The translations under genes were made by a program, and so were the position numbers. This document shows positions 13,388 to 29,622 of a DNA stretch of 41,550 bases, one piece after another. The stretch is taken from contig NZ_LKIR01000043.1 of NCBI RefSeq assembly GCF_001462205.1, positions 1 through 41,550 on the forward strand. The letters run 5' to 3'. This DNA comes from Haloparvum sedimenti (GTDB lineage Archaea > Halobacteriota > Halobacteria > Halobacteriales > Haloferacaceae). The notes under the pieces are model-generated. The model had not been told where the DNA came from, did not search any database, and worked only from the letters and a program-made list of their open reading frames with translations. Position 1 is the stretch's first letter. Every line of letters begins with the position of its first letter.

Positions 13388-13421
13388 GTGACCGTGGCGG
13401 TGGCGTGATCGTGGCGGTGGC
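13388..13421. repeat. Two tandem 17-bp repeats before element A
   Basis: The 17-mer GTGACCGTGGCGGTGGC (13388-13404) is followed directly by GTGATCGTGGCGGTGGC (13405-13421), one base different. It lies between the glutaredoxin start and element A and may mark the promoter side of that element. Another 17-bp repeat array of different sequence lies beyond the SRP RNA gene. Confidence 0.7.
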
Positions 13422-13900
13422 GCGCGCGAGAAACGCGCGCGAGGGAGGCCGCGGGGCGGGCGCGATGCGGTGCGGTCCCGCGCCCGCCCCGCGGCCGAGG
13501 CTGGGGAGGTGCGAGGCTGCTGTGCGGGGCGGTGCGGTCGCGGTGGGTGGGACTGAAAGGGGCAGCCGGCTCGATCCGGCCCCGACGACGCAAGCACTCG
13601 CGCTGGGCGGTGTCTCCAGCGCGCTACTGCACGCTGGAGGCTAGCGAGACGCGGTTTGTCTCGCCAAGCGGAGAAGCGTGAGCGCGCAGCGAGGCGCGGC
13701 CGGTCGAGCCGGCTGGGGCTTTCTGGGTGGTGCTGTCCAGATCGGCAGGATCGACAGCAGTTACAAAAACGTCGTCCGGAGAGCCGGCTGGGGCTTTCTG
13801 GGTGGTGCTGTCCAGATCGGCAGGATCGACAGCAGTTACAAAAACGTCGTCCGGAGAGCCGGCTGGGGCTTTCTGGGTTCCGAGAACTCCCGCGGAGCAG
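13421..13900 (+). ncRNA. Structured non-coding element A (candidate RNA, about 480 nt)
   Basis: Gene-free stretch with layered secondary structure, shown on the plus strand. In order: an 8-bp hairpin (13421-13428 with 13434-13441); the 14-mer CGCGCGAGGGAGGC (13436-13449); an 18-bp perfect hairpin (13447-13464 with 13479-13496, 14-nt loop); GCCGAGGCTGGGGAGG (13494-13509); the 12-mer GGACTGAAAGGG (13550-13561). A long-range stem then pairs 13563-13581 with 13698-13715 (18 bp, one bulged T), closed outside by GAAAG 13555-13559 with CTTTC 13719-13723 across a symmetric 3x3 loop. Two inner hairpins lie inside it (13614-13621 with 13632-13639; 13644-13650 with 13658-13664). Three copies of GGGCTTTCTGG follow in a 75-bp repeat. 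The same plan recurs in element B. Strand, ends and expression are inferred; DNA-level function is possible. The right end touches the gfcR stop at 13903. Confidence 0.6.
13706..13878 (+). repeat. 75-bp tandem repeat of element A (two identical copies and a 23-nt start of a third)
   Basis: Copies 13706-13780 and 13781-13855 are identical; 13856-13878 repeats only the first 23 nt before the sequence diverges. Each copy begins GAGCCGGCTGGGGCTTTCTG and holds its own hairpin: TGCTGTC 13731-13737 pairs with GACAGCA 13753-13759, with an inner GATC/GATC pairing. The repeated 5' part is the 3' strand of the long-range stem, so the one upstream strand (13563-13574) could pair with copy 1 (18 bp) or, less well, with copies 2 and 3 (10 bp plus CCGG). 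The period of 75 keeps the frame, but no gene runs through. Confidence 0.9.
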
Positions 13901-28142: not shown

Positions 28143-28210
28143 GGCGGGAACCACAAACGGAGTTCTCGACTCCCGACCGCCAAGCCGGCTGTCCCACGCC
28201 CGGCGCGCGC

Positions 28211-28700
28211 CGCGGCGACCGCGGAGCGCGTCGCCGCGACCGCGCGAGGGAGGCGGTGGCGCGGCCGCGCTGTGGTGCTGTGCGGTTCCGCGGCCGCGCC
28301 ACCGCCGAGGCTGGGGAGGCGAGAGGCCACGCTTGACTCGACAGCCGGACCAGAGACGCACCGAGCAACCGGCCGCGACAACCGACTCCGCAATCCACGC
28401 CCTGGCGGACTGAAAGGGCGAGGCCGGTCGCGGCCGCTCAGCCGACCCCTATCGGCGCCGGGTGTTGCGGAGAGGCGCCGGTATGTCGCTGAGCGGCCGC
28501 GAGCGGTCGAGGGCTTTCTGGATGTTCGCGGTGAACGCAGCAGAACGCTTGACTGAGACAGAACCACCGTACAGCGAGCGGTCGAGGGCTTTCTGGATGT
28601 TCGCGGTGAACGCAGCAGAACGCTTGACTGAGACAGAACCACCGTATAGCGAGCGGTCGAGGGCTTTCCGCACGTTCGCATCAGGCACAGCAGTACGCCC
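28211..28700 (+). ncRNA. Structured non-coding element B (second copy of the element A architecture)
   Basis: Gene-free stretch with the same order of parts as element A. An 8-bp hairpin (28211-28218 with 28231-28238); CGCGCGAGGGAGGC (28241-28254); an 18-bp perfect hairpin (28252-28269 with 28289-28306, 19-nt loop); GCCGAGGCTGGGGAGG (28304-28319); GGACTGAAAGGG (28407-28418). A long-range stem pairs 28422-28442 with 28488-28508 (one G-G mismatch and one G-U), with GAAAG 28412-28416 and CTTTC 28514-28518 closing it in the same register. Its loop holds a 7-bp hairpin (28453-28459 with 28474-28480). A 75-bp tandem repeat with GGGCTTTC follows. Apart from these motifs the sequence is unlike element A. 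It lies between the S9 peptidase and a membrane protein gene, both on the plus strand. Expression, strand and ends are inferred. Confidence 0.6.
28501..28700 (+). repeat. 75-bp tandem repeat of element B (two copies and a diverged third)
   Basis: Copies 28501-28575 and 28576-28650 differ at one base (28572 C, 28647 T). A third copy from 28651 keeps GAGCGGTCGAGGGCTTT, GTTCGC and CAGCAG at the same spacing but is otherwise diverged, and fades by about 28700. Each copy begins with the 3' strand of the long-range stem and carries CTTTC followed 24 nt later by CAGCAG. The unit length equals that of element A although the bodies are unrelated. Confidence 0.9.
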
Positions 28701-28787
28701 GCGTACCCGACCCGAGCCAGCGGCCTCCAGATCCCGATCTCGGTTCGGATCGCCCTTTTTAACGCACCCACGCCCCAACCCCCGTGC

Positions 28788-29291: not shown

Positions 29292-29312
29292 CCACTCGTG
29301 TACGAGGGAGTG

Positions 29313-29622
29313 GACTAGGTCGGGCGGTTAGGCCCCGCCCCTCGCCCGTAAGGTAGTCTTTAGCGGGGACCGAACGCCGGGGGTGTCCGGTCAGACCGGC
29401 ACGGGCCCCGGGAGCCAACGTGGAAGCCTCGTCCGACGGGGACAGCGGTTCGCGGCGCCCGCTCGCAGGAGCGGTCCGTCGCGGTTCGCCGGAGGAAACG
29501 GGTCAGGCGCGGAAGCGAGCAGCCCCCCTCCGGACGCCAGTCGCTCGTCGGGTCGCGGGGTGGAGGAGGCAACCGGGATTCCCCGCGTCGGAACGCCGGG
29601 CTATCCCGGCCCGTCCAACCAT
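29313..29622 (+). ncRNA. ffs: 7S (signal recognition particle) RNA
   Basis: RNA part of the SRP, which guides ribosomes making membrane and secreted proteins. The helix 8 signature is clear at about 29500-29523: GGGTCAGGCGCGGAAG followed by CGAGCAGC, the asymmetric-loop and tetraloop region bound by SRP54. The 5' end GGTCGGGCGG pairs with the 3' end CCGTCCAACC (one mismatch, one G-U) to form archaeal helix 1. GTTAGGCCCC and GTAAGGTAG near the 5' end fit the helix 2-4 region. Length of about 310 nt fits archaeal 7S RNAs. Ends are set by helix 1 and are good to a few nucleotides. Confidence 0.9.

Follow-up and report, generated by a model that had tools for sequence, protein, structure and literature searches.

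A multi-copy haloarchaeal repeat with a covarying single-strand fold and tandem 3′ units, probably a non-autonomous mobile element

Two intergenic elements, copies A and B, in a 41,550-nt stretch of Haloparvum sedimenti DNA (the window) are two of about 90–127 copies of one family in this genome, and we interpret that family as a probable mobile element of haloarchaea: small, non-autonomous, interspersed in large numbers and conserved in its single-strand fold. Many copies exist, lying between genes with no preferred orientation and differing in presence among relatives; compensatory changes maintain the three-hairpin fold of the written strand, and tandem repeats of the 3′ arm occur at single loci. 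An earlier note on this DNA had described a two-copy element, which proved wrong, as the 3.24-Mb genome holds 91 exact occurrences of GGACTGAAAGGG (0 for the reversed-pattern control) and 127 of GAGGYTGGGGAGG (2 for the reversed control). Among the 43 GGACTGAAAGGG copies read first, comprising copies A and B and 41 others, GCGAGGG lies upstream in every case and GAGGYTGGGGAGG also does so in 41.

The overall plan consists of three hairpins with variable stems (HP1, HP2 and HP3) and conserved unpaired motifs between them, followed by one to five copies of the 3′ arm, and the elements are about 250–550 bp long (Table 1). Two sequence subfamilies can be told apart, one resembling copy A and the other copy B. 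The ordered parts that the earlier note had placed in the glutaredoxin/gfcR gap, including GCGAGGGAGG, listed there between the 8-bp and 18-bp hairpins, are all found in copy A where it had put them, and the same order recurs in copy B, as it had held. At the base of HP3 in copy A, two helices flank a G/G internal loop (GAAAG-GGG-stem / stem-GGG-CTTTC). By minimum-energy folding, the RNA folds of both copies beat all shuffles (z −5.0 for copy A and −5.9 for copy B), with the main hairpins as described. In subfamily 2, an asymmetric HP3 loop, GAC-CCC-TATC / GATA-T-GTC, is kept across several families while the flanking stems change (window 28407–28518; loci L024, L048, L070, L073, L074, L078 and L088). 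An archaeal 7S (SRP) RNA gene lies at window positions 29308–29620, ~570 bp downstream of copy B.

Table 1. Parts of copies A and B, in positions of the window
Feature	Position	Strand	Remark
Copy A, element of subfamily 1	13421–13880	+	Antisense to both neighbours, glutaredoxin and gfcR
HP1 of copy A, 8-bp hairpin	13421–13441	+	CGCGCGCG-AGAAA-CGCGCGCG
Conserved motif GCGAGGGA of copy A	13439–13446	+	Mostly unpaired junction
HP2 of copy A, perfect 18-bp stem	13447–13496	+	Stem letters differ between copies, with covariation
CCGAGGCTGGGGAGG of copy A	13495–13509		
Conserved junction motif GAGGCTGGGGAGG-TGCGAGGC of copy A	13497–13517	+	
G-rich linker of copy A	13518–13549	+	Low complexity; length varies from copy to copy
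GGGACTGAAAGGG of copy A	13549–13561		
HP3 of copy A	13550–13723	+	GGACTGAAAG-GGG-CAGCCGGCTCGA ... TCGAGCCGGCTG-GGG-CTTTC
Long-range stem of copy A HP3	13563–13574 / 13704–13715		GAAAG/CTTTC outside GGG/GGG internal loop
Nested palindromic insert in apical part of copy A HP3	13610–13671	+	TCTCCAGCGCGCTACTGCACGCTGGAG...GCGAGACGCGGTTTGTCTCGC
75-bp 3′ unit of copy A, copy 1	13706–13780	+	3′ arm plus ~50 nt
75-bp 3′ unit of copy A, copy 2	13781–13855	+	Identical to copy 1
Third copy of 23-nt 3′ arm in copy A	13856–13878	+	
GGGGCTTTCTGG of copy A	At 13715, 13790, 13865		Period exactly 75 bp
Copy B, element of subfamily 2	28186–28735	+	Downstream end approximate
5′ domain of copy B	28186–28345	+	CGGCTGTC/GACAGCCG stem around HP1 and HP2
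Match of copy B to covariance model R1	28244–28327	+	56.7 bits
HP3 of copy B	28407–28518	+	Internal loop GAC-CCC-TATC / GGTA-T-GTC
GGGCTTTC of copy B, at 28511, 28586, 28661	28511–28668	+	75-bp period

The family is patchy across the class Halobacteria, and many related genomes have none. Of 242 genomes of the class sampled for GGACTGAAAGGG, 150 contain it, the sample ranging from 0 to 141 copies per genome. GAGGYTGGGGAGG was present in 108 of 234, and each sampled genome of a genus taken to be Halorubrum, as named Halorubrum loci carry the same sequence type, has between 12 and 194 copies of it; low counts (0–3) elsewhere among the genera overlap with those of the reversed-pattern control and are not evidence of presence. 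Outside the class, motif counts are at background level only. The covariance model R1, built on HP2 and its junctions, ranked copy B first and copy A second (48.9 bits) in a search of the window, where the next match scored 20.9, and under strict filters the 5′ module was found by covariance model in at least 15 of 97 genomes among the matches listed. The 3′ hairpin is more widespread than this module, and copies are present on haloarchaeal plasmids too. A phage origin was rejected, phage records having returned no match. The sole match in an Rfam search of the window was the 7S RNA; the element itself matched no family at the gathering score, in keeping with the earlier remark that it resembles no known archaeal RNA. 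No previous description of the family was found in a search, by motif and by topic, of papers mostly from outside the subscription journals.

One of 151 elements lies inside an open reading frame, as defined by our own codon-usage gene caller, which was checked on the window. The neighbouring genes are arranged ++ in 37 cases, −− in 31, +− in 42 and −+ in 24; convergent gaps are enriched (odds ratio 3.0, P = 7e-7), and the elements show no sense or antisense preference relative to genes. Orientation-neutral placement led us to reject a role as terminator or leader of a particular gene. No upstream promoter or TATA motif is common to the copies, and a shared TATA promoter upstream of HP1 was likewise rejected, being present in only a few Halorubrum copies. 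Separately, many Halorubrum units (L202–L221, L090) carry TTATAA 31–33 nt after the 3′ arm, which could be a TATA box.

Comparison of equivalent sites revealed that occupancy varies. In 57 haloarchaea with an adjacent gfcR–glutaredoxin pair, the gap is mostly 45–180 bp with no element, with other DNA in a few gaps; 55 relatives lack the element there, and it is present only in Halorubrum xinjiangense and H. distributum, in sense orientation, as opposed to the antisense orientation in the window. Comparison of sites across three related Halorubrum genomes showed roughly equal numbers of shared copies, in matching orientation, and unshared ones, which suggests that many copies are old or slow-moving. 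Halorubrum also provides presence/absence cases with well-matched flanks, a pattern that by itself fits insertion as well as loss. Alignments of empty sites defined neither exact ends nor a target-site duplication, the relatives' flanks being too diverged, and no terminal inverted repeats could be defined in the element. As in MITE- or BOX-like repeats, copies are numerous and scattered between genes, carry no transposase gene, and are present or absent among close relatives. Taken together, a copy number of ~100 or more, intergenic, orientation-neutral and convergent-enriched placement, polymorphism, and occupancy of the same gap in opposite orientations form the signature of an interspersed mobile repeat, and they leave the dedicated RNA gene implied by the earlier note unsupported.

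The fold itself is supported by covariation. Within the genome, all 12 outer positions of HP2 have changed on both sides (42 distinct arm pairs), and across genomes its 8 outer pairs comprise 95% standard pairs with a covariation score of 0.512, against 0.122 in shuffled and at most 0.074 in slid controls. The basal stem of HP3, in a test anchored without using its five letters, is fully paired in 75 of 78 cases and comes in four sequence variants: GAAAG/CTTTC, CGAAG/CTTCG, CAAAG/CTTTG and CGAAG/CTTTG, the last of which includes a G.U pair. Because the copies are related, these covariation counts are not independent events, and modular exchange within a genome could also spread matched arms. 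The earlier note had proposed one family conserved by fold rather than sequence and had named a lack of homologues or of covariation as evidence against it; many homologues exist in other haloarchaea and covariation lies far above both controls, which bears the proposal out.

Pairing also differs between the strands. When all mismatches are scored alike, the stems contain 51 G.T and 11 A.C mismatches (P = 3e-7), from which we infer that the written strand is the folding strand. The excess points the same way in each of the four gene contexts (10:3 for elements antisense to both neighbours), most contexts being non-significant singly; since the antisense context shows it too, read-through transcription was rejected as its cause. 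Selection on RNA or on single-stranded DNA (ssDNA) would explain the excess, as would a mutational bias from exposure of the written strand. Covariation above controls, and pairing in which G.U is tolerated and A.C is not, are features of a structured RNA, yet the G.U share is low and the strand-specific part could also arise from ssDNA or from a mutational strand bias. This share amounts to 1.5% of element stem pairs, somewhat lowered by a helix search that prefers perfect stems, versus 13% for the window's own 7S RNA when folded; the element stems are thus far cleaner than those of ordinary RNA.

These observations bear on two other readings. If the copies were a dispersed set of structured non-coding RNA genes, with transcription of every copy from the written strand and selection on the fold for some role in the cell, possibly the binding of a protein or pairing of the 5′ arm in trans with the repeated 3′ arms, one would expect the covariation with conserved loops and internal loops, the strand-specific tolerance of G.T, and the high copy number across one whole genus. 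We nevertheless consider such genes doubtful, because the stems are almost purely Watson–Crick, no upstream promoter motif is common to the copies, placement is orientation-neutral, convergent-enriched and polymorphic, and many related genomes have no copies. An RNA function of the element is possible. Alternatively, the elements could act as DNA, either as REP-like barriers where genes end or as cruciforms or G-rich structures to which a protein of the nucleoid, of replication or of recombination binds. The near-perfect palindromes and the enrichment between convergent genes would suit this role, as would the loops, which often contain GCGAAGC, a sequence that forms an unusually stable DNA mini-hairpin. 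A double-stranded site, however, explains neither the one-strand asymmetry of G.T over A.C nor conserved asymmetric internal loops such as CCC/U, and we regard a DNA-level role as unlikely.

The loops show further regularities. Which hairpin carries the apical loop GGGCGGTGCGGAGAG differs from genus to genus, which hints at shared loop modules (HP2 of the odd-numbered loci L093–L117, HP3 apices in the window's genome, and L070–L074), and recurrence of the internal loop AGCACCGCAG / GAGGAGCGCAG suggests the same. Palindromic inserts occur at fixed sites of the element, namely the HP3 apical loop (GGGCGGTG^CGGAGAG) and the GAGG^GA junction, with examples in copy A and at L012, L019, L021, L033 and L048. 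At G162:C3:123163-123255, GAGGCTGGGGAGG is present in six tandem copies with a 16-bp period.

Most elements of the genome carry the 3′ arm one to five times, mostly 75 bp apart. Fifteen of 60 pairs of adjacent units are 96–100% identical, the rest forming a diverged class, whereas between loci the median identity of first units is 59%; near-identity of neighbours against this background points to duplication in place. CRISPR arrays combine repeats with unique spacers, whereas adjacent units here are often identical throughout. Among about 70 elements, the distance from one 3′ arm to the next is divisible by three in all 60 instances (75, 78, 69, 72, 81 and 84 bp), as it would be if the units encoded a repeated peptide. 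Yet in-frame stops recur, 19 of 39 units having one at a common position, their number is near expectation for independent columns, and there is no clear codon-like phase signal. Protein-coding units were rejected on the stops and the missing codon signal, and we give a repeated peptide almost no credence.

To place the probable mobile repeat among known systems, we compared it with several classes. REP/BIME and REPIN sequences are high-copy intergenic palindromes associated with RAYT transposases. The present elements likewise are high-copy intergenic palindromes, and head-to-head GGACTGAAAGGG pairs 41–46 bp apart in two genera (G003, G115, G016, G084, G154; L082) form a BIME-like arrangement; unlike REP and REPIN, they are much larger and multi-domain, and no Y1 transposase locus is flanked by copies, one IS605 element with a copy beside its TnpB gene being the exception. 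Among the transposase loci of the genome (9 TnpB and 4 Y1), none has element ends on both sides, that IS605 element is the only one to adjoin a copy, and no mobilising enzyme was found among the IS605-type and Y1 transposases.

The same loci weigh on the view that the copies are PATEs, remnants of IS605-type transposons with near-terminal palindromes. Like PATEs, the elements are haloarchaeal, contain palindromes and have no transposase gene inside; PATEs themselves are an abundant kind of transposase-free repeat in one haloarchaeon (PMC3119063), and the one adjoining TnpB gene would fit. With none of these loci bracketed by element ends, a single IS605 element beside a copy and no IS605-type element of the genome having the family's ends, this origin is weakened and was rejected for the window's genome; in other genomes it might apply, and overall we judge it very unlikely.

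By analogy, the family would fit best as functioning like BOX elements and small mobile repeats (SMRs), while belonging to neither. Pneumococcal BOX elements are modular, intergenic, present in about a hundred copies and significantly enriched between convergent genes; they have a central tandem module (boxB) of variable number, a predicted stable RNA fold and known target-site duplications, and are considered mobile and non-autonomous (PMC3049150). The haloarchaeal family shares the modularity, intergenic location, copy number of about a hundred, variable tandem module, prediction of a stable RNA fold and convergent enrichment, and is probably mobile and non-autonomous as well. It differs in having no sequence relation to BOX, in being GC-rich, in repeating the 3′ arm with downstream sequence, and in stems that covary between copies; target-site duplications were not found here, the empty-site relatives being too diverged. 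SMRs of Haloquadratum walsbyi are about 80–110 bp long, with inverted terminal repeats, transposase-free and of unexplained mobilisation, and SMR-A elements insert into palindromes of other elements (PMC3119063). Our family is also haloarchaeal and transposase-free, and its nested palindromic inserts, which resemble a further repeat family lodged in hairpins, appear similar to SMR-A insertions; its 250–550 bp with three hairpins and tandem 3′ units set it apart from the short SMRs.

We envision that an enzyme of the host or of a transposon, acting in trans, would recognise the folded single strand by its hairpins and G-rich junctions (GCGAGGGA, GAGGCTGGGGAGG and GGGACTGAAAGGGGC), and that the element would be copied or moved via a single-stranded intermediate, either RNA or ssDNA. 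Between moves, recombination or slippage across the direct 3′-arm copies would grow and shrink the number of 75-bp units, much as the boxB number varies in pneumococcal BOX elements, and inside a transcript the hairpins would probably form stable RNA structure. More tentatively, and with low expectation, the family might be a kind of archaeal mobile element not described before, one spreading as a folded single strand (RNA or ssDNA), recognised by shape and conserved junctions rather than stem sequence, and carrying tandem alternative 3′ arms able to switch pairing with one 5′ arm.

In the host of the window and in all Halorubrum genomes sampled, this covarying structured repeat is present in roughly a dozen to almost two hundred copies per genome. 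This would matter for the annotation of haloarchaeal genomes and for the interpretation of RNA-seq data, given strong hairpins at gene ends, and it would bear on how transposase-free haloarchaeal repeats are mobilised.
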